NCBI RefSeq assembly: GCF_003234565.1
Contig: NZ_QKTU01000001.1
Location: forward strand, 496,001 to 560,000
DNA: 64,000 bases
DNA from: Curtobacterium sp. MCBD17_013
GTDB lineage: Bacteria > Actinomycetota > Actinomycetes > Actinomycetales > Microbacteriaceae
Direction of reading: 5' to 3'
Under the pieces are notes generated by a model. The model made no database searches and was not told the origin of the DNA. It was given only the letters and a program-made list of their open reading frames with translations. Of this stretch, positions 30,663-51,260 are shown in pieces (positions within the stretch are counted from its first letter, which is position 1; each line of letters begins with the position of its first letter). The position numbers were made by a program, and so were the translations under genes.

Positions 30663-30689
30663 GTCCGGTTGACGATCGGCTACCGGACG
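30663..30689 (+). repeat. Cassette-boundary palindromic repeat, copy 1
   Basis: GTCCGGT at the left and ACCGGAC at the right frame a GATCGGCT centre. It truncates the MarR fragment. Its left arm continues into a 30-bp stretch that recurs at 44.4 kb with one mismatch. Confidence 0.7.
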
Positions 30690-30771
30690 CTGCATCTACC
30701 CAGAGACCGCCAGGCAGGGACACCGTGTGTGACTCCGAAGATGGGCCACTCGACCTAAGGCCGCGGCGGAG

Positions 30772-30978
30772 TCAACGCCGACGGGACTTCGTAGCGCCGA
30801 TACCTCCACCAACAACGGCCAGCATGAGCCCTCCTGATCCCAGGGCCGACCCGGCCAGAGTAGGCAAACCCGCGTACCCGACGAGCAACGCTGACCCGAT
30901 GGCAAGCGCAAATCCGAGTACCGCCAAGGAGTACCAAAAGCGGGGTCTCCCGTCTGGCGTTGGGCGCTTCTCGGCCAT
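30772..30978 (-). CDS. Small two-span membrane protein
   Basis: 68 aa: a charged N-terminus (MAEKRPTPDGRPRF), two hydrophobic helices (YSLAVLGFALAIGSALLVGY and LGSGGLMLAVVGGGIGAT) and a basic KSRRR end, as in many short actinobacterial membrane proteins. It is the only gene between repeat copies 1 and 2, that is, one cassette-like unit. Function unknown. Confidence 0.65.
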   Translation of the reverse strand: MAEKRPTPDGRPRFWYSLAVLGFALAIGSALLVGYAGLPTLAGSALGSGGLMLAVVGGGIGATKSRRR

Positions 30979-31070
30979 GCGGCGGGGGTATCGAACGGGC
31001 GCTGTGCGGACGAGCGTCGCGGGAGCAACCTTTCCAGGCTCACGGTCTCCACGAACGCAGCTACCCTCGT

Positions 31071-31100
31071 CGTCCCAGTTGCGGATCGGCTAACGAGACG
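31071..31100 (+). repeat. Cassette-boundary palindromic repeat, copy 2
   Basis: CGTCCCAGTTGC, GGATC, GGCTAACGAGACG. The complement of its CTA (31090-31092) is the TAG stop of the glyoxalase pseudogene. It shows the right arm ACGAGACG most clearly. Confidence 0.8.
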
Positions 31101-31554
31101 GGCTGAGCGGCGCGACGAAGATGCAGAAGGGGTGTCCCGAGGGGTCGCGGAAGACGATCAGCGGTTCTCACACATCGTCTGATCGGTCCGCCAGTACCGC
31201 GGCGCCCGATCGCAGTGCACGGGCCCGCTGCCGATCGAGCGCCGCAGTCGAGTCGACGGTCAGGTCGAGGTGGAGCATCTGCGGAGGCGTGCCGGTCGGC
31301 CACTGTGGTTCCGGCATGTCGGGCGCGAGTTGGAAGGCCAGGCAACGGGTGCCGTCGTCGGCGGTCAGTACCAACCACTCGGGTTCCCCAGTCTCGCCGG
31401 CACCAGGTGCATCGCCTTCGCGGTACTTGAGGCCCAAGAGCAACCGGTAGAACTCGGCCAACTCTCGCGGTGCGGGGGTGTCGATCACGGTCTGCAAGAG
31501 ACGTGGGGCGTCAGCGGAAGAAGTCACGCCCCTGTCTACCGCCCGGACAACCAT
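31090..31554 (-). pseudogene. VOC-family (glyoxalase-like) gene with in-frame TGA
   Basis: The protein begins with RLLQTVIDTPAPRELAEFYR, LGLKYREGD and, later, PQMLHLDLTVDSTAALDRQ, a normal VOC fold. At 31168-31170 a TGA interrupts the frame after DRSDDV. The same frame then continues EPLIVFRDPSGHPFCIFV, the expected last strand of the family, to a TAG at 31090-31092 inside the repeat. One base change therefore inactivates an otherwise complete gene. Read-through is possible but no recoding signal is evident. The start could be the ATG at 31554 or the GTG at 31527. Confidence 0.8.
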
Positions 31555-31905
31555 TGGCGATCGACACGCAGTTGTTCCGCCCCGGGTTTAGTCGAGGCTC
31601 GGTAGTGCCGCTTCGACGGTAGCCGGAGCGGGGTTGTGCCGGTAGGGGCTCTGCTCGAATTCGACGGGTGGGACCATCCCGAGTTCGCCGTGGAGGCGTC
31701 GGTGGTTGAACCAGTCAATGTATTCGACGGTCGCGATCTCGAGGTCCTCGATGCCGCGCCAAGGCCCGCGGTTGCGGATCAGTTCGGCTTTGAAGATCGA
31801 GTTCACGGCGTCCGCGAGGGCATTGTCGTAGCTGTCGCCTTTCGACCCGACGGACGCGACCGCGCCGGCTTCGGCGAGCCGGTCCGTGTAGCGGATGGCT
31901 CGATA

Positions 31906-33408
31906 CTGGACGAGTTCAACCGGTCGATGCAACACCGGGTTGTTGAAGCGAGCGTAGTTGCTCTTCGAATACCTCGGCTGGTGTCTTCCAGTCGAGGCTC
32001 TTCCGCGGCCGGTTGTTCAACGCGGAAGCAACTGCTTCGAGGTCTCCCGCCGACCACCGTGAGAGGTCCGTGCCCTTCGGGAAGTACTGACGCAGCAATC
32101 CGTTTGTGTTCTCGTTCGTCGGCCGTTGCCAGGGCGAGTGGGGGTCGGCGAAGAACACCTTCGTGCCCGTCTCGAGCGCGAACTGAGCGTGAGCGGACAG
32201 CTCCTTGCCACGGTCCCAGGTGAGGGTCTTGCGGAGCTGCTCGGGAAGCTTGGTCATCGACGCGATCAGCCCGGCGTTCATCGCGACGGCGCTATAGCCG
32301 GCCAACGCGGGACCGTTCTTGACGGGTGGAATCTCGCCATAGCCTGCAAGCCGCGGTAGATGCACCAGCAGGGTCGAACGGCTCTTGCGCTCGACGATCG
32401 TGCCGATCGCCGACCGGCCAGTTCCGATGATCAAATCGCCTTCCCAATGCCCGGGAACTGCACGGTCCGCGGCCTCCGCGGGGCGCTTGGAGAACACGAC
32501 ATCCGCGGTGACATGCCCTTGCGGGCGGTTCTGCGTTCGAGCTCGTGGCTGTCGGAGCGCGCGACCGGTTCGCAGACAGGCGACGAGCTCGCGTTCGAGT
32601 GCACCACGGCCCTGGATGAACAGCGACTGATAGATCGCCTCTGGGCTGATCCGCATGGACTCATCATCGGGGAAATCGACCTTCAGCCTGTGCGAAATCT
32701 GCTCCGGGCTCCACGCGGTCGCCCACCGCCTGTCCTGCCGATGCGGCTTGTTCAACCCTTTCCATGATGGCGGCTCCGGCCCGATGACGATGCTGCCGTC
32801 GGGCCCACGGACGTTGCCGGCAAGGCGCTCCTGGACGTACTCACGCAGCCGCGGGTTCCCCACAAGCCTCGCGGTCTTGGGACGCTTCGCCGCCTGTTGC
32901 GCTTTCCACTGCGCCACCAACGCCCGGTACTCCTGCTTCCCGCTGCGCGTTGCCGCGTTCCGGCGCAGCTCCCGGGAGATCGTTCCCGCGTCGCGGCCGA
33001 TCCTGCGTGCGATCTCGCGAACGCCGATGTGCTGGGCGCGCAACAGTGCGATCTCCTCGCGCTCCTCGAACGACAGATAGCGACCAGACGGCTCGGTCAG
33101 CGAGATCGGTGCCATGCCGCCAGCGTGGCGAAACCAGCGACTCCCAACTGGCACCGACACACCCGATTGCAGCGCCGCCTCGGCTGAGTTGACGCCCGTC
33201 GCGATCAGACGCCAAAACTGCCGCTGCACTGCGCGCGAAGGTTCGGGACGACCGGGCGAGCGCATCGGCGGCCGCAACGCACGATCCGACCGCCACTGAC
33301 GTCGAACACCCTCGGGAGCCTCGCTCGTCTTCGCAATCCAATCCTTCTTCGCCACGTCGCAACACCTCCACGATCAGGGTGTTGCGACGACCAGTTGAAT
33401 CCGCCCTG
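31906..33408 (-). mobile_element. IS30-family insertion sequence (31909-33405) with CTG target duplication
   Basis: The 1497-bp element has 28-bp imperfect inverted ends (22 of 28 identical) sharing TTCAAC, GGTCG and GCAACACC. It is flanked by a direct CTG at 31906-31908 and 33406-33408. Removing it and one CTG restores the IS3 orfB reading frame, which proves the insertion event. It encodes one intact transposase. Confidence 0.92.
31916..33355 (-). CDS. IS30-family transposase
   Basis: The 479-aa protein has an N-terminal HTH typical of IS30: LSFEEREEIALLRAQHIGVR followed by EIARRIGRDAGTISRELRRN. The DDE core follows: GHWEGDLIIG (first Asp), ERKSRSTLLVHL, TWDRGKELSAHAQF (second Asp) and FADPHSPWQRPTNENTNGLL (Glu), ending with LNNRPRKSLDWKTPAEVF. 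GTG start; the stop lies in the left inverted repeat. No disruption is seen, so it may be active. Confidence 0.95.
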   Translation of the reverse strand: MAKKDWIAKTSEAPEGVRRQWRSDRALRPPMRSPGRPEPSRAVQRQFWRLIATGVNSAEAALQSGVSVPVGSRWFRHAGGMAPISLTEPSGRYLSFEEREEIALLRAQHIGVREIARRIGRDAGTISRELRRNAATRSGKQEYRALVAQWKAQQAAKRPKTARLVGNPRLREYVQERLAGNVRGPDGSIVIGPEPPSWKGLNKPHRQDRRWATAWSPEQISHRLKVDFPDDESMRISPEAIYQSLFIQGRGALERELVACLRTGRALRQPRARTQNRPQGHVTADVVFSKRPAEAADRAVPGHWEGDLIIGTGRSAIGTIVERKSRSTLLVHLPRLAGYGEIPPVKNGPALAGYSAVAMNAGLIASMTKLPEQLRKTLTWDRGKELSAHAQFALETGTKVFFADPHSPWQRPTNENTNGLLRQYFPKGTDLSRWSAGDLEAVASALNNRPRKSLDWKTPAEVFEEQLRSLQQPGVASTG

Positions 33409-34000
33409 AACTCCCCTGTCGCTGTGATGGACCAACCGCGACAGGTCCCGGCCCTCGCGGTGCCGCGTCCAGATGCCCATCTCGAGGGCGTCGAGGACGA
33501 GGTCGGTGCGCATGTTCCGCGACAGCTGCCAACCGACGATCCGGCGGGAGGACACGTCCGTGACGAACGCGGCGTAAACCCACCCGGAGAACGTGCGGAT
33601 GTAGGTGATGTCCGCGACCCAGAGTTGATCCGGGCCGGTCGCGGTGAACGCCCGCTGCACCAGGTCCGCCGGCCCATCCCCGATCGGGCCGGGAATCGTC
33701 GTCTTCGGTCCCTTCCGCTTGCTCACGCCGTGCAGGCCGGCGGATCGCATGAGCCGTTCGATGGTGCAGCGGGCGATCTGGTGGCCCTCCCGGCGCAGCT
33801 GGGCGTGCACTTTGCGGGCGCCGTAGACGCCGTAGTTGCTTCGGTGCACCCGCTCCACCTCGATCATGCGAGCAGCGTCACTAATCGACCGCGCCGATGG
33901 TGGTCTGGACTTTGCCGCGTAGTAGCTCGATGGGCGACCTGCGAGGTGCGGCAGATCGGCTCGACCCCGAACTCGTGCTTGTGGGATTCGATGAACTTCG

Positions 34001-34259: not shown

Positions 34260-34499
34260 TATCAGCACCCAAAACACCTTAGCCAAGTGACAGGCTTACC
34301 ACGTGCTGGCCCGCGCCAAGACAGTGGGCAGCAGCGGACTCGAGCAGATCCGCGGCCCCTCCGCCGGTGACATTGCCGGGCGGTCAGTCGAGACTCACTG
34401 ACCCGCTGAACTCTAGGAGGTATAGCTGGTCGATCGTGATTCCGTGTCCCGGCTGAGGCACCTACCGCGAAGCGTGCCATCGGAGTTATCCTGAATCGT

Positions 34500-35048: not shown

Positions 35049-35056
35049 CTGATACC

Positions 35057-35985: not shown

Positions 35986-36014
35986 CGTCTCAATAGCCGA
36001 TGGGCTGACGGACG
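35986..36014 (+). repeat. Cassette-boundary palindromic repeat, copy 3
   Basis: CGTCTCAATAGCC, GAT, GGGCTGACGGACG. It lies in a 435-bp gene-free stretch (35675-36109) in which I see nothing else. Confidence 0.75.
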
Positions 36015-36457: not shown

Positions 36458-36485
36458 CGTCCGGTTGCCGATCGGCTATCGGACG
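36458..36485 (+). repeat. Cassette-boundary palindromic repeat, copy 4
   Basis: CGTCCGGTTGCCGAT then CGGCTATCGGACG, a nearly perfect 28-nt palindrome and the most regular copy. Confidence 0.85.
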
Positions 36486-36773: not shown

Positions 36774-36801
36774 GGTTCGGTACCCGATGGTCTACCGGAC
36801 C
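36774..36801 (+). repeat. Cassette-boundary palindromic repeat, copy 5
   Basis: GGTTCGGTACCCGAT then GGTCTACCGGACC. Confidence 0.7.
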
Positions 36802-36839
36802 CGCGCATTCGTGCGGCTGTCTGGACCGGAGGCCGGCGC

Positions 36840-37301
36840 TTACGGTTGTGCGTTTCGGGAGGACGGGACCGTGCCGTCGAACCATCGAAGCTTGTACCGG
36901 GCGGTCCACTGGTCGAACCGTGACAGTTGGAGGAGGTAGTCGTCCGAGGGAAGCACGTTCCGGGTCTCACCGGTGCCACGGGTGAGCACTGCGCTCGCCT
37001 GTTTCCGCGCCTGCGACATGGACCTCTGCTGCCGGATGGTCAGCACGGTCTCGCAGGCGAGCACCAGGATCATGCTTCCGAACAGGAGCACGTTCGGAAG
37101 CGTCCGTTCCCCGGTCGAGCGGAAGCCTTGCGAGCCGAACACGATGAGCAGGCCCGCGACGTAGACGATGAGGACACCGCGCGCGGAACGTTGCGCCCGC
37201 ACGGCCGTGCGTCGTGTCCGCGTCGCTTCCGGCCCGATCCGACGCGACCACTCGGAATCCCTATCACCTGCCCGATCGCTGCGCTTACTCGGTTGGTTCA
37301 C
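36840..37301 (-). CDS. Hypothetical membrane protein
   Basis: 153 aa. A basic N-terminus rich in Arg is followed by two hydrophobic helices (VLIVYVAGLLIVFGS and NVLLFGSMILVLACETVLT), then a cytoplasmic tail with LLQLSRFDQWTARYKLRWFD. The GTG start overlaps the stop of the upstream 84-aa gene (GTGA), so the pair is one unit between repeat copies 5 and 6. Function unknown. Confidence 0.65.
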   Translation of the reverse strand: MNQPSKRSDRAGDRDSEWSRRIGPEATRTRRTAVRAQRSARGVLIVYVAGLLIVFGSQGFRSTGERTLPNVLLFGSMILVLACETVLTIRQQRSMSQARKQASAVLTRGTGETRNVLPSDDYLLQLSRFDQWTARYKLRWFDGTVPSSRNAQP

Positions 37302-37552
37302 CGTGCCTGCCGTCGGCGGGCCGCGCGATCGTTCCGCCGACGCTCCCGGTTCAGGTAATACAGCGTGGAGTACTTCGCGGCGCGACGAACGGATCCGTAA
37401 CCGGTGAGCATCGCCCCGCCGCTCACCGGAATCGCTGCACCGGTGACGGTGTCGACGACCCGTAGCTGCCAGAACGGCCCGAAAAGTCGCCGCGGCTGCA
37501 CCTCAAAACGAACGTCAACGTCCGGAAACTCCCCTCCGCCACCCCTGGTCAC
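37298..37552 (-). CDS. Hypothetical small basic protein
   Basis: 84 aa starting at a GTG. It has a strand-rich part (VDVRFEVQPRRLFGPFWQLR, then VVDTVTGAAIPVSGG) and a strongly basic C-terminus (LNRERRRNDRAARRRQAR) that could bind nucleic acid or membrane. It is coupled to the 153-aa membrane protein by a 4-bp overlap. No family recognised. Confidence 0.55.
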   Translation of the reverse strand: MTRGGGGEFPDVDVRFEVQPRRLFGPFWQLRVVDTVTGAAIPVSGGAMLTGYGSVRRAAKYSTLYYLNRERRRNDRAARRRQAR

Positions 37553-37615
37553 TCAGCGATTCTTGCAGCCTGGGCACCGTCTCCTGCTGCGGAATCACAA
37601 AGGAGAACTCGATGG

Positions 37616-37644
37616 CGTCCCGTAGCCGATCGGCAGCCGCGACG
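37616..37644 (+). repeat. Cassette-boundary palindromic repeat, copy 6
   Basis: CGTCCCGTAGCCGAT then CGGCAGCCGCGACG; the right arm is diverged. Confidence 0.65.
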
Positions 37645-37868: not shown

Positions 37869-37903
37869 GACGTGAACGGTACCGGGAGCTAGCTGCTCCT
37901 GTG

Positions 37904-37930
37904 CCCGGTAGCGGATCAGCTAGCGAACGG
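37904..37930 (+). repeat. Cassette-boundary palindromic repeat, copy 7
   Basis: CCCGGTAGCGGATC then AGCTAGCGAACGG. The complement of its CTA (37920-37922) is the stop codon of the MFS gene. Confidence 0.65.
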
Positions 37931-39167
37931 TCGTGGTTCGCAGGGGTGAGCACGCAGCGACAACTACGGCGGCGGCGAACACGAGAGTCACCGCGAGCAG
38001 GGCGAAGCGATCTCCGGCGACGGTCATGAGGGCACCGCCACCCACTGCTCCTACTGCGGCGAGCGTTCGGTTCGCGCTGCGCATCGTGCCGTTCATGCGG
38101 CCGAGGAGGGCGTCGGGTGTGACGGTCTGGCGGAGGCTCATCTCGTTCGCGTTCTCGCACCCCGCCGCAGCGCCATGCACGGCGAACGCGACGAACAAGA
38201 CCACGACGGCCACCAGCGGCGCTGCAGCGCCACTGCCAACGGTTGCGAACGTGATGGCCGCCCACGCGATCGGGTACGCGGCTCGAGCGGCGATGATCGT
38301 CTGGCCGGCACCGAAGCGGGTGCCGAGGCGCGGCGCAGCGGTAGCGCCGAGGAGCATCGCGACTCCGCTGACGGCGATGATGGCCCCGTACACGGCGGCT
38401 GGTAGTGCGAGGGTGCGAAGCGCGAGGGTCGCGAATACCGTCAGACCCGCGGCGTTGGCGAGGAACCACAGGTGTGTGGACAGCGCCAGAGGCGCAAGCG
38501 TTGCATGACCGTACGTCCAACGCAGACCGTCAACGATGTCGTGCCGCAGCCGCGTTCCCGGCAGGCGTGCCGGCTTCTGCTCGACAACGCGGACCCGGGC
38601 GATGAGGAGAGCGTCGACGAAGTAGCTCACCGAGTCGAGGGCGATCGCGACCGGCGCGGTGACGATGCTGACCACGACACCGCCGAGAGCCGGGCCCACC
38701 GTCTGCGCTGCCGCGTCACTCTGATCCACCCGCGCATTCGCCGCCAAGAGGAGCGGGCGAGGGACGATCCGAGGCAGGAGAGACTGCGTGGCGGCGAAGC
38801 CCACGACCGACAAGGCACCGAACACGAACAACGCCGCCGCCGTCACCCAGAGGTTCAGTAGTCCAGTCAGCCAGAGGACTGGAACCGTACCGAGGCACAC
38901 GCCACGACCAACACTCGCCCAGATCAGGAGTGGCTTCCGCCGGAAGCGATCGACGTACGCGCCGACGATCAGACCGAACAATGCATACGGGAGGAATTGG
39001 GCAGCGTTCACCAGGCCCACCTCGAACGGAGTGGCGTGCAGCACCGTCACCACGAGAACCGGTACGGCGACCGCGCTCACCGCTGATCCGAACGACGAGA
39101 CTGTCGCGGCCGACCAGTACGAGCGGAACCCGGGCACTCGACGCAGCGTGGTCACGTCGTCGCCCAT
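37920..39167 (-). CDS. MFS transporter, multidrug efflux type
   Basis: The 415-aa protein has twelve predicted spans and MFS features: MGDDVTTLRRVPGFRSYWSA at the N-terminus, GLIVGAYVDRFRRKPLLIWA (the motif-A loop GxYxDRxRRK) and the second-half loop GRMNGTMRSANRTLAAVGAV. It most resembles the enterobactin/macrolide-exporter-like MFS_3 group. The ATG at 39167 is chosen; upstream in-frame codons lack homology. The TAG stop falls inside repeat copy 7. It is divergent from the phosphoesterase-like gene. Confidence 0.88.
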   Translation of the reverse strand: MGDDVTTLRRVPGFRSYWSAATVSSFGSAVSAVAVPVLVVTVLHATPFEVGLVNAAQFLPYALFGLIVGAYVDRFRRKPLLIWASVGRGVCLGTVPVLWLTGLLNLWVTAAALFVFGALSVVGFAATQSLLPRIVPRPLLLAANARVDQSDAAAQTVGPALGGVVVSIVTAPVAIALDSVSYFVDALLIARVRVVEQKPARLPGTRLRHDIVDGLRWTYGHATLAPLALSTHLWFLANAAGLTVFATLALRTLALPAAVYGAIIAVSGVAMLLGATAAPRLGTRFGAGQTIIAARAAYPIAWAAITFATVGSGAAAPLVAVVVLFVAFAVHGAAAGCENANEMSLRQTVTPDALLGRMNGTMRSANRTLAAVGAVGGGALMTVAGDRFALLAVTLVFAAAVVVAACSPLRTTTVR

Positions 39168-39272
39168 GCGCCAACGCTTGCAGATCGCAAACCCACGAGC
39201 AAGGAGCTTGGCACCACACGTCCCTGTGCGGGTGGCTGATTGCTCGCCGGGCGTTCGTGGCACTGTGAGGTC

Positions 39273-40316
39273 ATGGGTTCCAGCGTCGCCGTCCTCTCCG
39301 ATGTGCACGGCATGCTGCCTGCGCTCGAGCGGGTCCTCAGCGAGCCAGCCGTGCAGCGCGCGGAGCTGATCGTCGTGACGGGAGACCACACCTGGGGCCC
39401 TCAGCCGGCGCAGGTCCTCAACCGCCTCATGCAACTCGGCGACCGGGCGGTCCTGATCAGGGGGAACGCGGACCGGGAGCTGCTGTCCATGTCTCGTGGG
39501 ATCGACGTCGGCCTCGGCGATGACCCCGTGTCAGTGTGGGGCGCGGCGCAGCTCGCCTCCGAGCACCGTGCCCTCCTGGAGTCGATGGCTGAGAACGTCA
39601 CGGTCGACATCGACGGGTTCGGGCCGGTGTTCTTCTCACATGCGACGCCACGCAGCGACGAGGAAGTGGTCCTGGCGCGTCGCGGTGTTCGGAGGTGCGA
39701 AGACCGCGCCGTGCCAGCTCGTACCCTCGCGGCTCTCGACGACGCGACGTTCGACGTCACCGCCGCTCGAGCGAGCGACGGCCAACTGCTCCTGCACGGG
39801 TGGGTCGACGAACACGACACGAGCCTCGGGACGGTGCGACTGCCGGTCCTGCTGACTGTTTCCAAGACAACCGACGTCGTCATGGACAGCACCGGCGGGA
39901 CCGGCGAGCTCGTGCCCGAAAGCATCGACGTCATCGCAACAGCGGCGACGCTTCGAGGCGTCATCCCATGTGTGGTCGTCGTGACCACGTCGACGCGGAG
40001 CGAAGTGCCGCTCGACGTCGGAACCAGCCCGATCGCGCTCCGCCGATGGGGCCGATGGTGGCCATGGGACGGTGCGCCGGCGCTTCTGAACTACCGCGCC
40101 GTGTCGAGGCGGCTCGGGGGCACGGCCTGCCCCGCGTGCACGCATCGGTGGGACGAACACCCGGGCGGAGAGGACGTGACGCGGACGACCTGCGGTGAAT
40201 GCGAGTACGAGCTCGGCACGGTGAGCTGCCGCCGGATGGATCGATCTGCACGGCGACGGTGCCGCGTTGGCTTCTCGAGCTCGGCCGAGCGGACCCCGGG
40301 CGCGGGCACCCCTTAG
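39273..40316 (+). CDS. Chimeric metallophosphoesterase: N-terminal half fused to a zinc-ribbon tail
   Basis: Residues 1-135 are a calcineurin-like phosphoesterase: SSVAVLSDVHGMLPALERVL (DxH metal motif), VTGDHTWGPQPAQVL (GD motif), LIRGNADREL (GNxD) and FFSHATPRSDEEVVL. The expected GHTH and NPGS motifs never follow. Instead the frame continues into unrelated sequence with a C-terminal zinc ribbon (TACPACTHRWDEHPGG, TTCGECEYE). The junction lies near 39690. Loss of the last metal ligands should abolish phosphoesterase activity, so this is a fusion or decayed gene. Confidence 0.65.
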   Translation: MGSSVAVLSDVHGMLPALERVLSEPAVQRAELIVVTGDHTWGPQPAQVLNRLMQLGDRAVLIRGNADRELLSMSRGIDVGLGDDPVSVWGAAQLASEHRALLESMAENVTVDIDGFGPVFFSHATPRSDEEVVLARRGVRRCEDRAVPARTLAALDDATFDVTAARASDGQLLLHGWVDEHDTSLGTVRLPVLLTVSKTTDVVMDSTGGTGELVPESIDVIATAATLRGVIPCVVVVTTSTRSEVPLDVGTSPIALRRWGRWWPWDGAPALLNYRAVSRRLGGTACPACTHRWDEHPGGEDVTRTTCGECEYELGTVSCRRMDRSARRRCRVGFSSSAERTPGAGTP

Positions 40317-40729: not shown

Positions 40730-40758
40730 CGTCGGCTACCGATCGGCTATTGAGATGG
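40730..40758 (+). repeat. Cassette-boundary palindromic repeat, copy 8
   Basis: CGTCGGCTACCGAT then CGGCTATTGAGATGG. The complement of its CTA (40747-40749) is the TAG stop of the HAD gene. Confidence 0.75.
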
Positions 40759-41463
40759 AGCCGACCCGCCTGGTAGGGGCGCTCCAGTGCTTTGGATGAT
40801 CTGCCACGCTGCATCGGTCAAGGTGCAGCCGGGTCCTACTTGGATCGCTCGCAGGCCAACCGCTTCGGCGCCGGCGATGTCGGCGATCCGGTTGTCACCG
40901 ACCATCCATACGTCCTCCCCGGCGCCCGCAATCTCCATCGCGCGCGCAAAAATGCGCGGATTCGGCTTCTCGGCTCCCACCGCTGCGCTCGTGACGGTGG
41001 CATCGATCCAGGGGCCGAGTCCGAGGTCAGCGACGAGGTTCGGGAGTTCGGGCGCGTGGTTGCTGAGGATGACGTTCCGATACCCGACGGCAGCCGTGCG
41101 CGCGAGCGCCGGTATCGCGTCTTCGGCCAGATTCCAGGCCGAAGGCCGGTAGTACTCAATAGGGATCTCGGCGATCGCGCGTTCCGCATCTTCTCGTCCC
41201 ACGCCCGCCACCGTGTACGCACGGAGGAACACAGAATGCTGTGCAGCCCACCATGCGGCAGCGGACTGCGTTACGCGCACGATGTCGGGTGAGTGCCAGG
41301 GGAAGCCGACAGAGAGCTCGGCGGGGAAGTCCGCTGCGGCGAGTCCGAGCCCGGGAGCGATCGGCTGCAGCGCCTTTTCCAGAGTGGAGGACCAAAGACC
41401 TTCACGAGACACCAACGTGCCGTCGAAGTCCCACAACACGACGCGATTGGTTCTATTGCGCAC
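40747..41463 (-). CDS. HAD-superfamily hydrolase
   Basis: The 238-aa protein has all HAD motifs: VVLWDFDGTLVSREG (motif I, nucleophile Asp), NVILSNHAPELPNLVADLG (motif II), a motif III Lys in GAEKPNPRIFARAM and DVWMVGDNRIADIAGAEAVG (motif IV). An alpha-helical cap lies between motifs I and II. It would dephosphorylate a small phosphometabolite or act as a dehalogenase; substrate unknown. The TAG stop is inside repeat copy 8. Confidence 0.9.
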   Translation of the reverse strand: MRNRTNRVVLWDFDGTLVSREGLWSSTLEKALQPIAPGLGLAAADFPAELSVGFPWHSPDIVRVTQSAAAWWAAQHSVFLRAYTVAGVGREDAERAIAEIPIEYYRPSAWNLAEDAIPALARTAAVGYRNVILSNHAPELPNLVADLGLGPWIDATVTSAAVGAEKPNPRIFARAMEIAGAGEDVWMVGDNRIADIAGAEAVGLRAIQVGPGCTLTDAAWQIIQSTGAPLPGGSAPSQ

Positions 41464-41850: not shown

Positions 41851-42790
41851 GGGCGTGTTGCTAAATGCTCGGATCGCAGTGATCGGTAACGCTCGAGGTG
41901 TGTCGCGTGACGTGATCTCCGATGAAACCTGGGCTGTGATCGGACCATTTCTCCCGCGAGCGAAGCCGAGAGGGCGTCCGCCGGTGGATCGTCGCATCGT
42001 GGTGGAAGCGGTGGTGTGGCGGTTCCGGACGGGTGCGCCGTGGCGGGATCTGCCTGAGCGGTTCGGGAACTGGAACACGGTCTTCCGCAACTTCGACCGG
42101 TGGGCCAAGGCCGGCGTCTGGGCGCGGCTGCTCGAACACGTGCAGGGCGCGGGAGAGCGCCGCGGCGACATCGACTGGGCTGCGTCGATCGATTCGACCA
42201 TCGCGCGCGTGCATCAGCACGGCGCGACCCTGCCCCGCGTCAAGAAAGGGCACATCGAACTACAACAAGACCGCCGCTGAGCCAGCTGATCACGCGATCG
42301 GACGATCTCGTGGCTGACTGATGACGAAGACGCATCTCGTTTGCGACGGTAAGGGTAGGCCGCTCGGCTTCGTCGTCACGGCGGCCAGGTGGCGGACACG
42401 ATCATGCTGCCGGAGACGATGGAGCAGATCCGTGTCCCCACCGCGGGGCGCCCCCGTTCTCGGCCGGACCGGCTGCGCGCGGACAAGGGCCACCCGTCGA
42501 GAGCGAACAGAGCGTGGCGGCGGGCACGTGACGTGAAGACGACGATCCCAGAGCGTCATGACCAGATCGCTCATCGTCGGAAACGTCCCGGACGGCCCAT
42601 CGTTTTCGACGCGGCCGACTACAAGAGCCGCAACGTCGTCGAGCGGTCCTTCAACAGGCTCAAGCAGTGGCGCGGCATCGCGATGCGCTCTGACATGACC
42701 GCACGGAACTACCACGCCGCACTCTGCCTTGCAGCGACACTGCTCTGGACTGGTAATCCGAGACCGGCGGCGGGCTCCCTCGATGGTTGA
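41851..42790 (+). mobile_element. Broken IS5-family element
   Basis: The left end is probably GGGCGTGTTGCTAAATG at 41851. The transposase is recognisable (ISDETWAVIGPFLPR, RTGAPWRDLPERFGNWNTVF, then DKGHPSRANRAWRR and KSRNVVERSFNRLKQWRGIA) but is spread over at least three frames. Breaks lie near 42255-42285 and 42300-42325 (a TGA after RSRG) and near 42385. No matching right inverted repeat is seen near 42790, so that end is probably lost. Confidence 0.85.
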
Positions 42791-42806: not shown

Positions 42807-43559
42807 TCACGACAGGTGTGCTGCCGCGAACGCTGCATACGCCTCGGGGAGGAACTCGGGCAGCTTTGCAGAGACGCGTTCCAGCACGGCACGGGACTCC
42901 GGCTGGGTGGCAAGCTGCTTGCCGACTTGCTCGAACGCTGCTCGGTCAGGCGTCCACATCGAGCTCATCGCTGCGTGCATCTCCTGCACGACGGCGCTTG
43001 TCCGGGGGTCAGACGGCGAAGTGCCGTCATCCGCCAAAGCGCCGAGCCGTCGGAGCCTGTCCTCGTGATCTGCCTGAGCCTGCTTCTTGGCGGTGTCCGA
43101 CATCCCGGAGATGGCGTCGCGGGACTGCTCCGCCTCCGCCGTCCAGCGCCTTTGCGCTTCGGAGTCGATCGCCGTCGTGTCGAAGCCGGTGAAAAGGTCT
43201 CCGGCGTCGTTTGCGGTCATGGTTGTTCCTTCCTTTGTGAGGAAGCGGAGAGCACGATCGACTGAGGCAAGGACGTCAGCGACCCGAGCCTGCTCACTCA
43301 GTAGCGCCGTGCGCTGCTGTTCGAGCGCGGCTCGCGGATCGACCTCGTCGGCGAGGATCCGGCCGATCTGCTCGAGCGGTACCTGCAGTTGCCGATACAC
43401 CAACACGCGCTGTAGCCGAAGCACCTCGTCGGGACCGTAATAGCGCATCCCCGCGGGAGTCGTACCTGCCGGGTGCACCAGCCCGATCCCGTCGTAGAAC
43501 CTCAGCGTCCGGGCAGTGAGTCCGGTCGCCTTCGCAAGCTCCGAGATCGTCAACCGCAT
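42807..43559 (-). CDS. MerR-family regulator with TipAS-type domain
   Basis: The 250-aa protein begins MRLTISELAKATGLTARTLR, a MerR winged HTH, then FYDGIGLVHPAGTTPAGMRY and the dimerisation helix with LYRQLQVPLEQIGRIL-like YRQLQVPLEQIGRILADEVD. The C-terminal half (about residues 120-250) is helical with the TipAS pattern, a domain that binds thiopeptides or other antibiotics in TipA. An adjacent drug-resistance target gene is not evident. It converges with the broken IS5 element. Confidence 0.9.
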   Translation of the reverse strand: MRLTISELAKATGLTARTLRFYDGIGLVHPAGTTPAGMRYYGPDEVLRLQRVLVYRQLQVPLEQIGRILADEVDPRAALEQQRTALLSEQARVADVLASVDRALRFLTKEGTTMTANDAGDLFTGFDTTAIDSEAQRRWTAEAEQSRDAISGMSDTAKKQAQADHEDRLRRLGALADDGTSPSDPRTSAVVQEMHAAMSSMWTPDRAAFEQVGKQLATQPESRAVLERVSAKLPEFLPEAYAAFAAAHLS

Positions 43560-43686
43560 CGTCCTACTCCGCTCCGACGGGCGGACCATCCGCGCCGTCA
43601 CGACGACCCTAAGAACTGCCGCAACGGCAACCTCAACACCCCAGTTTCCCGCAATAGCTCATTCAGCAACACGGCCTAGTCGCCAT

Positions 43687-43713
43687 CCCGATAGCCGGTC
43701 GGGCTACCGGTCG
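43687..43713 (+). repeat. Cassette-boundary palindromic repeat, copy 9
   Basis: CCCGATAGCCGGTC then GGGCTACCGGTCG. Confidence 0.7.
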
Positions 43714-44236: not shown

Positions 44237-44561
44237 ACCTCGTTCGGGGCGCCGCGACCTCGAACAAGGCCTCGGGGGTGGTCCGTCCGATCACGAGTGC
44301 TACCAGACCGAGAAGTGCGGGCCGATGGCCTTCGACGATTCATCGGCGAGTACGAATGAACCTGTCCGAGAGCCGGTCGTTCATCGGATGCACCACCACC
44401 GCTGCCGCTGGTCGACCCTCGTCTCGGAAGTGGATCGTGAACCGGACCTCGACGGACCCGGCTCCCGAAGTCCTCGTGCGCAGCTCGACCCAAGGAGCTC
44501 CGAGGGAACGTCCGTTGCGCGCCGAGTCAGCTGAGTCAGGCCAGGCGGTTACGGTTCGAGC
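44237..44561. other. Gene-free stretch with a duplicated fragment
   Basis: No complete gene. On the minus strand a frame ending at 44340 reads AGSVEVRFTIHFRDEGRPAA then VVVHPMNDRLSDR without a plausible start. Its GSVEVR part recurs beside repeat copy 1 (30.65 kb). A possible diverged repeat copy lies at 44262-44291 (GTCCGTCCGATC ... GCTACCAGACC). Confidence 0.4.
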
Positions 44562-45332
44562 ATGAGCGAGCAGCTGTCCGTTCCCGAACTCGCGGCGCAG
44601 ATCGGTGCTGACCCGAAGCGGATTCGTGGCTGGACGCGACGGCAAGGCTGGCGACACCCGAGCGAGACCGGGCAGCCGTGGAGCCTCACCGGCGAGTAGA
44701 TCGCGATTCTGACTGTCCGATTCTCGAAGACCACTGCCCTCTCCGCCACGGAGCCGTTCGTCTGGGTGGAACCGGCCTCCGCACCGTTGCCGGAACCAGA
44801 AGACATTGATGAGGTTGACGGCGAGTTTGCGACGCCACTCGCGCGCCTGAATGTCGGCGATCTGCTCGACACCTACACGAACGTCCTCGCCGAACTTCGC
44901 ACCCGACACCTGATCCGCACGAACAACGCACCCATCGGAGACCCCGCCGAGTTCTGCGCCGCAATCGTCTACGACGGGCTGCTCGCGCCAAACTCGGAGA
45001 AGTCGTACGACCTGACCGCTGCCGATGGTCGCAAAGTGCAGGTGAAAGTGCGGCTGGTCCGGCCCGGCATGGCAAGCGGCGCCGTATTTTCGCCGCTCCG
45101 ATCGTTCGACTTCGACATTTGTGCCTTCCTCGTCATCGATAACGAAGCCGGTGAAGTCGTCGCGGCGCGGGAATGGACTCCAGTCGAGGTGCGCGAGCAC
45201 GGGTCCTTCAAGAAGTACACTAATGGCACGGTCGTCACGGTGTCCCAGGTGCGCTCGTCCAAGGCCCGCGGACTCGACCGGACGGCGGACTTTGACGTGG
45301 CTTGGCGGGAGCTGCTCAGCCAAACCCGATGA
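44562..45332 (+). pseudogene. HTH plus PD-(D/E)xK-like protein gene with in-frame TAG
   Basis: The ATG frame encodes MSEQLSVPELAAQIGADPKR then IRGWTRRQGWRHP, a small HTH. At 44697-44699 a TAG stands where CAG (Gln) would be expected; the same frame then continues for 210 codons. The later part has a nuclease-like core: GDPAEFCAAIVYDGLL, EKSYDLTAADGRKVQVKVRL (E...D...xVK pattern of restriction-endonuclease-like folds). It probably was a DNA-binding nuclease or defence gene inactivated by one substitution. Confidence 0.7.
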
Positions 45333-45685: not shown

Positions 45686-46002
45686 CCAGCGCCAGGCACC
45701 GTCCGGTCGTCGATCGGCTGACGAGACGGGTCGTGTAGGCCGGTCACCGCGTTGTGGGAGCCGGCAGCGGTCAGCTGCCGGTGCCCGCTTCCGCTCTTCC
45801 GTTGGTGGAGCGTGACGATGAGTTGAGCGATGTTGCCCAGGAGCCAGACCGCAATCAAGATGAAGTTCAGGATGATCGGGTTGACGATCGCTTGGACGAG
45901 CAAGAAGACGCCGGCTGCGATCCACATGACCCAGATCCACCTCCGCAACCGGCGGCTTTCCTCCGGCGACCGGGGCGGCTCTTCCGGCTGTTCGTCCGTC
46001 AC
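45682..46002 (-). CDS. Small membrane protein, second gene of the operon
   Basis: 106 aa from a GTG. An acidic/Pro start (TDEQPEEPPRSPEESRRLRR) is followed by two spans (WIWVMWIAAGVFLLVQAIV and IILNFILIAVWLLGNIAQLI), then a polar tail. The tail is encoded across repeat copy 10, which here lacks the TAG and is translated (RQPIDDR). It is unusual in having a repeat inside the gene. Function unknown. Confidence 0.6.
   Translation of the reverse strand: MTDEQPEEPPRSPEESRRLRRWIWVMWIAAGVFLLVQAIVNPIILNFILIAVWLLGNIAQLIVTLHQRKSGSGHRQLTAAGSHNAVTGLHDPSRQPIDDRTVPGAG
45700..45728 (+). repeat. Cassette-boundary palindromic repeat, copy 10 (inside a gene)
   Basis: CGTCCGGTCGTCGAT then CGGCTGACGAGACG. It lies within the 3' end of the minus-strand gene 45682-46002; its left-arm TAG has been lost. 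Confidence 0.75.
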
Positions 46003-46324: not shown

Positions 46325-46352
46325 GTCCGATCGCCGATGGGTCAACGAGACG
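46325..46352 (+). repeat. Cassette-boundary palindromic repeat, copy 11
   Basis: GTCCGATCGCCGAT then GGGTCAACGAGACG. Confidence 0.65.
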
Positions 46353-46397: not shown

Positions 46398-46444
46398 ACG
46401 GGCTAAACGGGCTAAACGGGCTAAACGGGCTGAACGGGCCGAAC
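46398..46444 (+). repeat. Five tandem 9-bp units at the 3' end of the beta-flower gene
   Basis: ACGGGCTAA occurs three times, then ACGGGCTGA and ACGGGCCGA. On the minus strand the units read as Pro-Val plus Arg, Gln or TAG. The gene stops at the first TAG-bearing unit. Confidence 0.85.
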
Positions 46445-46720
46445 TTGACGGACCGGCTTCACAGGCCCACCGGTCGCCCCCTCCATGAACGCCACGATGT
46501 GCCCGCTGTTGTCGCGGAACATCCGATTGTTGAAGTACCCCACGTGACCACCACGCAGGTTGTACACGGCGTCATCACTGAGCCGCCCGATGACCGCCCC
46601 GCGCGGAGACCGAATCGAGTCGGTCTCCAGCCAAGCAACGACCGCTCCATTGGGGCCATAGATCGCGTTCAAGGTTTTCCTCTCCTCGTAGTCGATCCGA
46701 CCTCGAACAGTAACTAGCAC
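46421..46720 (-). CDS. 4-fold beta flower domain protein
   Basis: The 99-aa protein is made of short repeated beta units around Gly-Asn or Gly-Arg turns: IYGPNGAVVAWLETDSIRSP, RGAVIGRLSDDAVYNLRGGH and VGYFNNRMFRDNSGHIVAFM. This is the pattern of small 4-fold beta flower proteins of unknown function. The end runs into a Pro-Val repeat (VKPVRQVRPVQPV) encoded by the 9-bp tandem repeat, where a TAG now terminates it. Confidence 0.75.
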   Translation of the reverse strand: MLVTVRGRIDYEERKTLNAIYGPNGAVVAWLETDSIRSPRGAVIGRLSDDAVYNLRGGHVGYFNNRMFRDNSGHIVAFMEGATGGPVKPVRQVRPVQPV

Positions 46721-46849: not shown

Positions 46850-47155
46850 ATGGACGCGAGGGTCGAGATGGGTGTTCACGCGAGTTGGGTGAACGGGTGG
46901 TTTCTCCGCGTCGCGAGTCGGGCGTTCTTGCGTGTGGACGGCGCGGAGATATTGCTCTCTTGGACGCATCCGACGGGAGTTGCCGTGGAACCGGGGCAGC
47001 ACGAGATCGCGGTGGGGGTTCGGTACCGCGGCTTCTCACGTCTGCTCGGCGCTCGGACGTGCCTCGTGTCCGTCGAGCCCGGCCAGACGCTTCAACTGAG
47101 GGCCCACAATGGGCCGCTCAACTCTGACTCCTTCAACATCTTCCAGTCGCAGTAG
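46850..47155 (+). CDS. Hypothetical beta-rich small protein
   Basis: 101 aa. Alternating strands (FLRVASRAFLRVDGAEILLS, GQHEIAVGVRYRGFSRLLG, TCLVSVEPGQTLQLRAHNGP) suggest an immunoglobulin- or carbohydrate-binding-like sandwich. The ATG at 46850 fits better than the one at 46835, but no strong ribosome-binding site separates them. The TAG stop is the first TAG of repeat copy 12, here for a plus-strand gene. Confidence 0.6.
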   Translation: MDARVEMGVHASWVNGWFLRVASRAFLRVDGAEILLSWTHPTGVAVEPGQHEIAVGVRYRGFSRLLGARTCLVSVEPGQTLQLRAHNGPLNSDSFNIFQSQ

Positions 47156-47176
47156 CCGATCGTCTACCGAGACTGG
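47143..47176 (+). repeat. Cassette-boundary palindromic repeat, copy 12
   Basis: CCAGTCGCAGTAGCCGAT then CGTCTACCGAGACTGG: the longest arms (34 nt). Its TAG (47153-47155) ends the plus-strand gene. Confidence 0.8.
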
Positions 47177-47861: not shown

Positions 47862-48240
47862 GACATCCCCCTCCGAAGCGCTCTCAGCGCCGCTGAGTCG
47901 CGGGCGGCCGTGCGCCGCCGCCGGACGATTCTAGGAAGCCGAAGGACGGCGGCACGGCCGGGGCGACAAGCGGCACTAGGTCGGCGTAGCGAGAACCGGC
48001 CAACCGTTGCGTGCCCGAACGCCGAACAGGTCGTATTCGAGAGAAGCACCTATCCGACCGTCCTCACAAACCGTGAGCGGCCGTCCGTAGGCTTCCCCCG
48101 GACTGGACGATCAACCACTTCTCCCAGAGCAACTCAACTGGTGAAGGACAGGGTTTCGTTCCTGCGCTCCTTCGGCGAGTCGCAAGCTCGCCGGCGATGA
48201 GGCCCACATTGATCGCCAGCTCGACCAAGCGGAGGCGCTG
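47862..48240. other. Gene-free stretch
   Basis: No supported gene. A weakly repeat-like sequence lies at about 47975-47995 (GGTCGGCGTAGCGAGAACC), but it is too diverged to count. Confidence 0.35.
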
Positions 48241-48268
48241 CGTCCGTTGGACGATCAGCTACCGGGCG
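48241..48268 (+). repeat. Cassette-boundary palindromic repeat, copy 13
   Basis: CGTCCGTTGGACGAT then CAGCTACCGGGCG. The complement of its CTA (48259-48261) is the TAG stop of the GrpB pseudogene. Confidence 0.7.
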
Positions 48269-48743
48269 AGGAGCTGGCGAATGACCTGGTACTTCTGAGC
48301 GATGTACTCACCCCAGCTGCTCGCTGATGCCTCGGCCGTCCGTTTCGCAGCAAGGTACGTCGACCGCGCGGTGGAGTCTGTTCGGAGAAGGTCGCGGAAG
48401 GCCAACCACTCGCACCATTCGTTCCCGCGGTTCTCGACGACGTGCACGACTGCTGCGCGGTCGGTCCGCCGGGGCAACTGAGCCACCCGTGGAGGTTCCG
48501 GAACCCCTCTTCGTCAAAGCCGGCTGCTTTCAGGGCAGCGACAGCATGGCACACTTGTTCGGCCGGGACCCCAACGAGGACGTCGACAACGTCTTTCGAG
48601 GGCAGCCCGGCGACACTGGTGGATCCGATGTGCTCAATGAAAGCGTTCGGAACGAGCAGCTCGAGACGCTCCCGCAGCACGTCGAAGCGCTCCACCCAAG
48701 CACCATGCTGACTCGGCACCAACTCGATTCGTTGTCCCCTCAC
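48259..48743 (-). pseudogene. Frameshifted GrpB-family (nucleotidyltransferase-like) gene
   Basis: Starting at the GTG at 48743 the frame encodes LVPSQHGAWVERFDVLRERL, EHIGSTSVAGLPSKDVVDVL (the GS and DxD-like nucleotidyltransferase pattern) and VCHAVAALKAAGFDEEGFRN. Near 48480 the frame is lost by a one-base change after HGWLSCPGG. The rest (AAVVHVVENRGNEWCEWLAF then RDLLRTDSTARSTYLAAKR) is in another frame and ends in the repeat TAG. GrpB proteins are common cassette cargo; function unclear. Confidence 0.8.
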
Positions 48744-48770
48744 CCTTCGATCTTCGGCCCTGCAGCCGCT

Positions 48771-48797
48771 GTTCGCTAGCGGATGGGCTACCGGTCG
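48771..48797 (+). repeat. Cassette-boundary palindromic repeat, copy 14
   Basis: GTTCGCTAGCGGAT then GGGCTACCGGTCG. The complement of its CTA (48788-48790) is the stop of the next minus-strand gene. Confidence 0.7.
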
Positions 48798-49273
48798 ATG
48801 GCGGGGGCTTCGTCTCCTGGTTGCGGTGTCGACCGGAACTTGACGCCCCATGCAGCTACGGCGGTCCTGTAATCGTCCAAGGGTCGACGATGCTCGACAG
48901 CTCGTCGATCACTGTCCCAGGCGACGACCCCAGTGGCGTGAAGGTGCCGCCACAGGTCGACCACCGAGCCGAGAGTCATCGGTGTCGTAGGCGGCACTGG
49001 GTCGGTACGAAGGTACTCGGCGGCCGAGTCGACCGTGAAGTCGTCGCTTCCATGGAGGATGACGGGGAAACGGACAGCGACGAGGTCCTCGAGGTCAACG
49101 TCCGGGTGTTGCTCCGCGTAGTTCTCGTACTCCCAGATGGGAACGTTCGGACGGTCCGGCGTTGCTGGCCCGGCGAGCGTGCCACCCGCGAGGGCCGCGG
49201 CACCAGGATGTTCCGCCTCGAGCGACTGGAGGATCGCGAGACGTTCCTCCTCGGGCATGCCTTCGATGTTCAT
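48788..49273 (-). CDS. Hypothetical protein
   Basis: 161 aa from the ATG at 49273 (MNIEGMPEEERLAILQSLEA). It is soluble and acidic at first, with PNVPIWEYENYAEQHPDVDL and LGSVVDLWRHLHATGVVAWD. No family recognised. The TAG stop lies in repeat copy 14, and copy 15 lies upstream, making a one-gene unit. Confidence 0.6.
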   Translation of the reverse strand: MNIEGMPEEERLAILQSLEAEHPGAAALAGGTLAGPATPDRPNVPIWEYENYAEQHPDVDLEDLVAVRFPVILHGSDDFTVDSAAEYLRTDPVPPTTPMTLGSVVDLWRHLHATGVVAWDSDRRAVEHRRPLDDYRTAVAAWGVKFRSTPQPGDEAPAIDR

Positions 49274-49330
49274 CCCCTGATCATCCACCTCCAATCGGCC
49301 GTTAGGGAGATTGCTCCGCTGCGACGAAAG

Positions 49331-49359
49331 CGTCCGACAGCCGATCGGCGGTAGAGACG
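49331..49359 (+). repeat. Cassette-boundary palindromic repeat, copy 15
   Basis: CGTCCGACAGCCGAT then CGGCGGTAGAGACG. Confidence 0.7.
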
Positions 49360-49398
49360 TTCCGAGGGCGGTGGAAGCAGGTGCGGCATACTGCCCAC

Positions 49399-49941
49399 AT
49401 GGACCGCCAGGCCGCGCGTCAGAAACAAAGGGACCTCCGCTCGGAGCGTTTGAGACTGCGCCCCTGGACGGTCGCCGATGCAGCCTTCCACCGCCGACTG
49501 TGGGAGGAGCGCGACGAGCGTGTTCCTGCACGGCGGCGCATCACAGCCGATGGTCATCCCACTGTCGCGGAGATGCAGGCCTGGCTTCGCGCCTATCGGG
49601 CGACGCCAGCACCAGGACTGCTCGTCGTGGAGCAGCCCCGGACCGCCGTTCCGGTCGGATACTGCGGTCTCGTCGAGAACAGCGTCGGTCATCCCGCCGA
49701 GCCCGAACTGGCGTTCGAGTTCCTGCGGGAGTACTGGGGCCAGGGGTTCGCGACCGAAGCATCACAAGTGATTGTTCGTCGGGCAGCGGCGATCGGCTAT
49801 GACCACCTAGCCTCCACGGTTCGCGAGTGGAACACGGCATCACTCAACGTGCTCGACAAACTCGGGTTTGTTCCTACCGGGGAACGAGAGCGCGACCCCG
49901 TGCACGGCAATCTGCTCCTGCTCCGCTTACCGCTTCAGTGA
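49399..49941 (+). CDS. GNAT-family N-acetyltransferase (RimJ/RimL type)
   Basis: The 180-aa protein shows ERLRLRPWTVADAAFHRRLW at the N-terminus, the strand LVVEQPRTAVPVGYCGLVEN, FEFLREYWGQGFATEASQVI (acetyl-CoA pyrophosphate loop) and TVREWNTASLNVLDKLGFVP, the typical C-terminal RimJ/RimL segment. It transfers acetyl groups to an unknown amine. CATACT at 49387-49392 lies 6 nt before the ATG (leaderless pattern). Sole gene between repeat copies 15 and 16. Confidence 0.9.
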   Translation: MDRQAARQKQRDLRSERLRLRPWTVADAAFHRRLWEERDERVPARRRITADGHPTVAEMQAWLRAYRATPAPGLLVVEQPRTAVPVGYCGLVENSVGHPAEPELAFEFLREYWGQGFATEASQVIVRRAAAIGYDHLASTVREWNTASLNVLDKLGFVPTGERERDPVHGNLLLLRLPLQ

Positions 49942-49951
49942 CGGAACCTAT

Positions 49952-49979
49952 CGTCGGGTGATCGATCGGCTACCGGACG
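49952..49979 (+). repeat. Cassette-boundary palindromic repeat, copy 16
   Basis: CGTCGGGTGATCGAT then CGGCTACCGGACG. Confidence 0.75.
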
Positions 49980-49984
49980 TGTAG

Positions 49985-50227
49985 TCAGAGGCCTCGTCTG
50001 GCCTGCCATCGGTTGATCACGAACAGGACGATTCCGAGCACGGCGAGACCGATGCCGATGACCATCGTTCCGGGGCCACCGCCGTGGGCAAGGTCGATGC
50101 CTCCCCGAACCGCCTGAATGACGCCAACGCCGACCACTATCCACGGGAGGACCTCGCGGAACGGGTTAGGGCGAAGAGTCCGGAATCGTCGCGGTGTCTC
50201 GTCCGCTTCCTCATCCCCATCGCTCAT
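49985..50227 (-). CDS. Small two-span membrane protein
   Basis: 80 aa. A charged start (MSDGDEEADETPRRFRTLRP) is followed by helices EVLPWIVVGVGVIQAVRGGI and MVIGIGLAVLGIVLFVINRW, with a basic end. Five bases separate its stop from repeat copy 16. Function unknown. Confidence 0.65.
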   Translation of the reverse strand: MSDGDEEADETPRRFRTLRPNPFREVLPWIVVGVGVIQAVRGGIDLAHGGGPGTMVIGIGLAVLGIVLFVINRWQARRGL

Positions 50228-50259
50228 GAGGGTCAGCCTCTCAGATCACGGGTCCCGAC

Positions 50260-50284
50260 GACCGGTAGCCGACCGACTACTGAC
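50260..50284 (+). repeat. Cassette-boundary palindromic repeat, copy 17
   Basis: GACCGGTAGCCGACC then GACTACTGAC. The 250 bp from here to 50535 hold no supported gene. Confidence 0.6.
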
Positions 50285-50535
50285 ACGGGTCAGCCTGACT
50301 ACCAAGCTCGCCCGATGCTCTGCATTGGAGCGCGCAGCGCCGTCGTGCTGACCTCGTGCACGACATGCGCAGGGCGTGCTGTGGCCGTCATGCAATGAAG
50401 GAGGTCAAAGCCATCGTCGGTAATGCATGAGTTTGGCGTCTTCGCTCATAGTCCGCATCAACATCCTCGAAGAGGGACGGAAGGATCGCTCCTTCGACTG
50501 ATGACTCGAGGGCGCGCTCGGAAGAGACTCCGGTC

Positions 50536-51069
50536 GTGCCCTCCGATCTGTACCAACCACCCGACCTCAGGCGCGGGCTCTGGGCCGGGGCCCTTATTGT
50601 CGGCCTGCTGCTCCTGCTCGTCGGAGGAGTCTTCGGCGGCGTGCTCTGGGTGACGACGGCGATCAGCTCTGGTTCTCACGTGGCCGCCGCACCCAGAAGT
50701 TTCGCCTACGGCATCTGCGACGCGCACGCGCCGTGGTCATGCCCTGCAGTGCCCAGCCGGACCATCGCATCGGAGTTTGGTCGAGCTATCCCGTTGGGTG
50801 CGTCCGTGTTCATCGCGGAAGCTGAACCGACGGCTGGAATCACTGGCACCCCGCAGATTCAGGTCGTGATGGAGCTACCAAAGGGCGATACAGCTTCTGG
50901 TTGGCTGTCGCTGATCGGAACCGCTGATCCCGTCGCCGACCCTAACCAGATCCCAGAACTTGGGCATCTCGGCGTGACCGGCATGTCGGGTGGAGCGTCC
51001 GGGTTCACCTCTGTCTACGCGGGCGAGCTAAACGGCCGGGTGTACGTGTGGGCCTACCGAAGGTTGTAG
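50536..51069 (+). CDS. Hypothetical membrane-anchored protein
   Basis: 177 aa from a GTG. A short cytoplasmic start (MPSDLYQPPDLRRGLW) leads to one span (GALIVGLLLLLVGGVFGGVL). A beta-rich outer domain follows, with a Cys pair (YGICDAHAPWSCPAVP), VFIAEAEPTAGITGTPQIQV and YAGELNGRVYVWAYRRL. No family recognised. Sole gene between repeat copies 17 and 18. Confidence 0.65.
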   Translation: MPSDLYQPPDLRRGLWAGALIVGLLLLLVGGVFGGVLWVTTAISSGSHVAAAPRSFAYGICDAHAPWSCPAVPSRTIASEFGRAIPLGASVFIAEAEPTAGITGTPQIQVVMELPKGDTASGWLSLIGTADPVADPNQIPELGHLGVTGMSGGASGFTSVYAGELNGRVYVWAYRRL

Positions 51070-51226
51070 AAGGGTGTCGCCGCTGTCTCGGCAATCCGAG
51101 CGCGAGGGACGACTTCGGCCGTTGCAGGGGGTGGGACGGCGGGCGGAGAAGCTGCGACCGGAACGGTTCGAGTTTCGCACGGCTTGGTGACGACCTCGCG
51201 GAGCTTGCTCGCCGCGAGCAACCGAA

Positions 51227-51260
51227 GGGGGCCGGTTGCGATCGGCTGACGAGCAGCCCC
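51227..51260 (+). repeat. Cassette-boundary palindromic repeat, copy 18 (last)
   Basis: GGGGGCCGGTTGCGAT then CGGCTGACGAGCAGCCCC. The outer arms pair as GGGGGC/GCCCC. No further copy is seen to the right. Confidence 0.7.

Follow-up and report, generated by a model that had tools for sequence, protein, structure and literature searches.

A palindrome-bounded array of exchangeable gene cassettes in Curtobacterium, probably derived from site I of a serine-resolvase res

The window analysed here is a stretch of 64,000 nucleotides from contig NZ_QKTU01000001.1 (positions 496,001 to 560,000) of Curtobacterium sp. MCBD17_013, whose genome is a 3.39-Mb draft in 38 contigs. A 20.6-kb island in it is punctuated by a palindrome without polarity, the consensus of which is about CGTCCGGTAGCC-GATC-GGCTACCGGACG. 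A preliminary description of the locus had listed 18 copies, and the palindrome was present at all 18 positions. Using copy inspection and a symmetric, gap-free weight matrix, sites were placed at 30663..30688 (site 1, the left outer boundary), 31073..31098 (site 2), 35988..36013 (site 3), 36459..36484 (site 4), 36775..36800 (site 5), 37617..37642 (site 6), 37903..37928 (site 7), 40730..40755 (site 8), 45701..45726 (site 10), 46325..46350 (site 11), 47147..47172 (site 12), 48242..48267 (site 13), 48771..48796 (site 14), 49332..49357 (site 15), 49953..49978 (site 16), and 50260..50285 (site 17). Copy inspection and a covariance model (R1) placed site 9 at 43686..43712, with one base inserted near the centre, and site 18, the right outer boundary, at 51227..51255, with one base deleted in the left arm. 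Because of these one-base indels, both (copies 43687 and 51227) were missed by the gap-free matrix, which found 16 of the 18 copies and two extra sites, at 44422 and 46789. When the matrix was applied to the window and 24 fetched loci, 177 sites were obtained, compared to none in reversed sequences. The 14-bp core, with at most two mismatches allowed, was matched nine times in the window, against 0.18 matches expected from shuffles.

The longer outer arm had been described as lying always on the right, such that all copies would share an orientation. Site 3 (copy 35986) contradicts this, as its long arm is on the left (CGTCTCAA). Over 251 sites from 48 loci, the long arm occurred on the left only in 48, on the right only in 46, on both sides in 19, and on neither in 138. 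The site therefore has no polarity.

Many intervals between sites had been described as containing one gene; some contain IS elements (ca. 31.6-33.9 kb and 41.9 kb). Pfam supplied names for a VOC/glyoxalase cassette gene (31168..31554, minus strand), an MFS transporter open frame (37920..39434, minus strand), an overlapping metallophosphoesterase open frame with a provisional start (39240..40316, plus strand), a HAD hydrolase open frame (40747..41463, minus strand), a MerR/TipAS regulator (42807..43601, minus strand), a DUF6998 open frame (44766..45332, plus strand), a 4-fold beta-flower protein (46421..46720, minus strand), and a GNAT acetyltransferase cassette (49381..49941, plus strand). 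Two insertions in the array were likewise recognized, namely an IS30-like transposase within an IS3-like element (31588..33867, minus strand) and an IS5-like transposase (DUF4096; 41855..42280, plus strand). Sixteen of the 30 scanned open frames had no Pfam match at E<=0.1; overlaps among some of these frames mean that not all of them can be genes. GrpB, which had been named among the cargo, did not appear as a family match in the 30 frames. PADLOC, applied to 10 window proteins, gave one restriction-enzyme-like match: the cassette gene at 44766-45332 resembles a methyl-directed type II restriction enzyme (mREase_II, E 1.8e-20). A window-trained gene caller based on codon usage reported 32 genes before 29.4 kb and only two in the interval 29.4-51.7 kb; the codon usage of the cargo is therefore unusual.

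R1 was trained on the 18 copies, and its recovery of all 18 is thus by construction. In a scan of the window's own genome at E<=0.15, 18 of 21 matches fell inside the island; the other three were located at C38:62656, C37:107737, and C12:81063. The flagellar half of the window had been described as free of copies, and this stood except for one weak match at 24461 (E 0.033 and 0.22 in two R1 scans), which is probably due to chance. In 59 genomes scanned on both strands at E<=0.1, matches were present in all 35 other genomes of the genus (3-44 each). Five of the 35 had merely 3-6, which is near the 0-4 matches observed in each of the 23 genomes of other families. A scan of 150 genomes of the family at E<=0.02 gave a match in 20, and at least 12 matches were found only in three members of the genus and in one other genome, G086. 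In 0.90 Mb of Curtobacterium DNA (48 loci), the weight matrix located 250 sites at a median spacing of 734 bp, with none in the reversed control. Palindrome arrays occur across Curtobacterium. Site pairs 48-49 bp apart made up 7 of 204 spacings in this genus (L033, L035, L071), and pairs at about twice that distance (96-97 bp) made up 7 of 84 in Frigoribacterium (L159-L180).

The flank genes at 28590 and 52729 were tried as synteny anchors; no match at E<=1e-30 was obtained in 34 other genomes, and synteny was therefore taken from a strain of the same species, G075. The left flank (16353-30689) was 99.4% identical in G075, with the identity stopping directly after site 1; the right flank was 95% identical from 51175, ca. 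50 bp before site 18. Both outer sites are retained in G075. Between them, the interior was mostly replaced, and a 4.1-kb block was common to both strains at 99.2%. The unit at 36784..37630, the window ends of which lie within sites 5 and 6, was inverted in G075 (96.2% identity). In G075, where the inverted unit has its far end (near 15688), no site scoring at least 8 was detected, and only a half-site was readable. The G075 joins at window positions 37454 and 41543 do not coincide with window sites.

A second close comparison was provided by two plasmids, D35 (from Curtobacterium sp. MCBD17_035) and D40. These are 99.86% identical over 15,501 bp, and the identity ends in the GATC of one site. 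Beyond this breakpoint, D40 carries a cassette from the same array as a second, inverted copy (97.7%). One of the D35 cassettes is also found, at 93-94% identity, in chromosomal arrays of G007 and G035. The preliminary description had looked to sister strains for turnover of whole units with breakpoints in the core. Such turnover was seen, along with some junctions that lie away from sites.

Between arrays of different genomes, homology blocks (71-98% identical) were found in differing neighbourhoods and orientations, many of them ending at palindromes, and species have cassettes in common. Of 226 block ends (57 blocks, 25 loci), 79 fell within a site, compared to 1.7% of random positions; the other 147 were outside detected sites. 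The neighbour changed at the site for 68 of 71 homologous cassette ends, the pairs not all being independent. Identity on the inner side of the switch was mostly 0.75-0.99, whereas on the outer side, from the third base onward, it was about at the level of unrelated sites; the switch was accordingly placed in the central 2-4 bp. A wider comparison of ends, in which 651 of 686 pairs switched, was not used as main evidence because many pairs compare one same res unit and some loci overlap. The left and right halves of the 250 sites were independent of one another (agreement 0.661, shuffled 0.659), which is the expectation for reshuffling and not for a conserved hairpin. Together with the G075 and D35/D40 comparisons, the cross-genome blocks and the switches at cassette ends identify an array of exchangeable gene cassettes, and on these comparisons the palindrome is judged to be a recombination site, as the preliminary description had proposed, naming no enzyme, for an uncharacterized gene-capture system.

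The same description had offered a REP-like element as an alternative. In the form weighed here, a REP-like or terminator-like palindrome of accessory intergenic DNA is shuffled by homologous recombination. The sites are indeed mostly intergenic. However, the flanks are otherwise unrelated and the switch is limited to the central 2-4 bp, ordinary homologous recombination requires more than so short an identical core, and compensatory pairing is missing. This account is highly improbable; it leaves unexplained both why flanks are exchanged at the centre and why the palindrome matches res site I, as described below. Folding was also considered separately: a hairpin reading was rejected given the same lack of compensatory pairing and given that 7 copies folded weakly (best z -2.1).

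A conserved block of ca. 370 bp stands at the end of several arrays and was found, often in partial form, in 32 of 60 genomes of the genus. It had been entertained as an attI-like leader, but this was dropped, as its first 130 bp resemble the res located beside serine resolvase genes; its last 50 bp may, at a guess, represent a transposon end. In five places (G030:C35, G013:C16, G012:C3, G011:C20, G075:C2), the res block is directly upstream of a resolvase gene and has the same direction; in three others (G006:C2, G026:C1, G034:C1), it is on the 3' side and faces a resolvase gene or fragment. Site I of the block carries the half-site of the arrays, and the conserved stretch runs from site I to the gene. 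In D35, the resolvase gene is preceded by site I ca. 0.1 kb upstream and then by eight further sites scoring at least 14, with small genes between the latter. A 56,505-bp contig of G075 contains a resolvase gene with the same place and sequence. The D35 resolvase (WP_111026624.1) comprises a Resolvase domain (PF00239) and an HTH_7 domain (PF02796), and its relatives in the PDB include DNA-invertase, gamma-delta resolvase, and Tn3 resolvase. No TnpA transposase was encountered among the 10 scanned proteins of the D35 region. Two genes of the D40 locus (L239 22531-23746), ca. 10 kb from the resolvase gene, are annotated as a Pycsar effector and a nucleotide cyclase.

Resolvase loci were compared using the best 80 of 143 confirmed relatives of the D35 resolvase, several of the loci coming from one genome. 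Among these 80, sites besides site I numbered 22 in 9 Curtobacterium loci, 124 in 31 Frigoribacterium loci, 28 in 21 loci of Arthrobacter-type genera, and one in the 19 remaining loci (reversed control, 0); 26 of the 31 Frigoribacterium loci had at least two further sites. In the same best 80, the matrix located a site I at -170..-95 in 5 of 9 Curtobacterium loci, in 27 of the 30 Frigoribacterium loci with enough upstream DNA, in 13 of 21 loci of the Arthrobacter type, and in 11 of the 19 that remain. Over 28 Frigoribacterium loci, the gene-side half of site I was nearly invariant across 16 bp, and the far half was as variable as array sites; the DNA beyond it was mostly unrelated, with a left flank common to four loci. 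In D35 and several Arthrobacter loci, the sites lie on the upstream side of the gene; in Frigoribacterium, they are downstream. The Arthrobacter/Pseudarthrobacter loci L203, L222, and L236 have four to five sites upstream of the resolvase gene, which suggests related arrays with a somewhat different site outside Microbacteriaceae.

Homologues of the cargo of the window were met in such settings. In Curtobacterium sp. ISL-83 (L158), res site I is directly adjoined by a homologue (78%) of the VOC cassette, and in Frigoribacterium sp. ACAM 257 (L174), a homologue of the GNAT cassette has a site on either side; these tie the window to the resolvase system. A gene readable as dnaB in the own genome (G000) has next to it, at C38:62656-63265 (L052, L138), a solitary perfect site together with 86 bp left over from the res block; in G007, an array adjoins the homologue of that gene.

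It was also considered that the cassettes could be non-autonomous transposons, with the half-sites as terminal inverted repeats, the GATC or AT as target duplication, and the palindromes as products of side-by-side insertion. Such elements would account for the finding that both ends of a cassette carry the same half-site, one inverted relative to the other, and IS elements are present. Against this, complete palindromes also occur alone (L052 12662), cassettes are inverted in place, the site equals res site I of the resolvases, and no matching transposase was identified in a search less than genome-wide. Little probability was assigned to this explanation.

The recombinase itself was assigned to the resolvase family on three grounds: the identity of the sites, the place where the breakpoints fall, and the linkage to resolvase genes. 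A different assignment, in which another, unrecognized recombinase acts on the palindrome and resolvases merely share the ancestral site and regions, is unlikely but was given some weight. In its favour, no gene for PF00239 (E<=1e-4) was found in 6 of 36 genomes, including the window's own, though R1 matches occur there; a serine recombinase universal to these genomes was ruled out on the same count. Moreover, the geometry of the platforms (resolvase gene and res) is uneven, and the centre of platform site I is GT, compared to AT in 222 and GT or AC in 27 of 250 array sites. Matching overlaps are generally required for exchange, and exchange between array and res should therefore be rarer. On the other hand, the half-sites of res site I and of the array sites are identical, the breakpoint falls where resolvases cut, and beyond two per genome no tyrosine recombinase is common to all. 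Genes with a Phage_integrase match were present in all 36 genomes, with just two in the array-bearing genomes G001, G016, G020, and G031; the two in each near-complete genome would be XerC and XerD. A tyrosine recombinase was accordingly rejected as the enzyme, four array-bearing genomes having only these two and the dif-like site being different. A lone site at the same 4.8-kb distance from a gene for a phage-type tyrosine integrase was noted in two genomes (G010:C1:3124175-3129467 and G021:C11:437324-442616), perhaps marking an element that uses the site.

The preferred reading, regarded as probable, is that of a serine-resolvase gene-cassette system, in which the palindrome would be res site I, the crossover site of a small Tn3/gamma-delta-type serine resolvase, present as an independent copy. 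The DNA between two site centres would make up a cassette, often containing one gene. Two sites would be broken and rejoined in the central GATC, with a 2-bp AT overlap; the breakpoint comparison points to the centre of site I as the place of exchange. Exchange within one molecule would excise a cassette as a circle or invert it, and exchange between molecules would insert or swap cassettes. Since the central AT is its own complement, the sites would lack polarity and cassettes could enter either way. Platform and enzyme source would be a resolvase gene accompanied by a complete res (sites I, II, and III), sometimes plasmid-borne, and the resolvase may act in trans. The role of the resolvase as exchanging enzyme, the circular intermediate, and the action in trans are all inferred from sequence. 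Excision is the preferred reaction of known resolvases, which depend on the accessory sites II and III; most array sites are solitary. Given that no PF00239 gene was found in its own genome, the window would contain an orphan array.

For the Tn3 family, strand exchange at the centre of site I is described in PMC13367494. The systems of PMC4133298 and PMC13367494 (Tn3-family TnpR/res, TIMEs, and TIME-RES) likewise feature a small serine resolvase with res upstream and exchange at the centre of site I, and inversion between res copies is reported there. What differs here is that the crossover site is multiplied, usually lacks sites II and III, and bounds many single-gene cassettes. Module exchange at res is familiar from mercury transposons.

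The textbook system for gathering single genes in cassette form is the integron, which is linked to the tyrosine recombinase IntI. With integrons and CALINs (attC clusters without an integrase), the present arrays have in common mostly single-gene mobile cassettes in rows between recombination sites, a platform of recombinase gene and docking site, and orphan arrays. They differ in having a serine resolvase in place of the tyrosine IntI and a symmetric, double-stranded site without polarity, with genes in both directions; the attC of integrons is a folded single strand. The pdif modules of Acinetobacter plasmids share with the array a 28-bp, two-armed site that flanks small gene modules in either direction; they use XerC/XerD and a dif-like sequence, and the array site is not dif-like. 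The overall look of the array would suit a true integron (IntI, attC) or an Xer/pdif module system. However, TIGR02249 exceeded its curated cut-off in none of 60 genomes of the genus (weaker tyrosine-recombinase matches occurred in all 60), the halves of the 250 sites lack the covariation expected of folded attC, and a sequence that would be dif, TAATGCATATTATGTCA(A/G), was found in nine of nine genomes and is unlike the array site. The probability of this identification is negligible.

With small genes being swapped at resolvase-like cut sites, Curtobacterium appears to have an integron-like collecting system based on an unrelated enzyme. It is likely, on balance, that this constitutes a second, independently evolved kind of integron. 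In it, res site I would have been multiplied into a cassette-boundary site, and polarity-free arrays of single genes would be shuffled both inside and across replicons, species, and genera (Curtobacterium, Frigoribacterium, and perhaps some Arthrobacter); the resolvase platforms would be carried by plasmids, and chromosomes would have orphan arrays. Searches of an open-access library gave no paper that describes such arrays. If correct, a serine-resolvase analogue of integrons would demonstrate more than one evolutionary origin of cassette capture, and it would account for gene differences from strain to strain in Curtobacterium. The site motif can be used to look for such arrays elsewhere.
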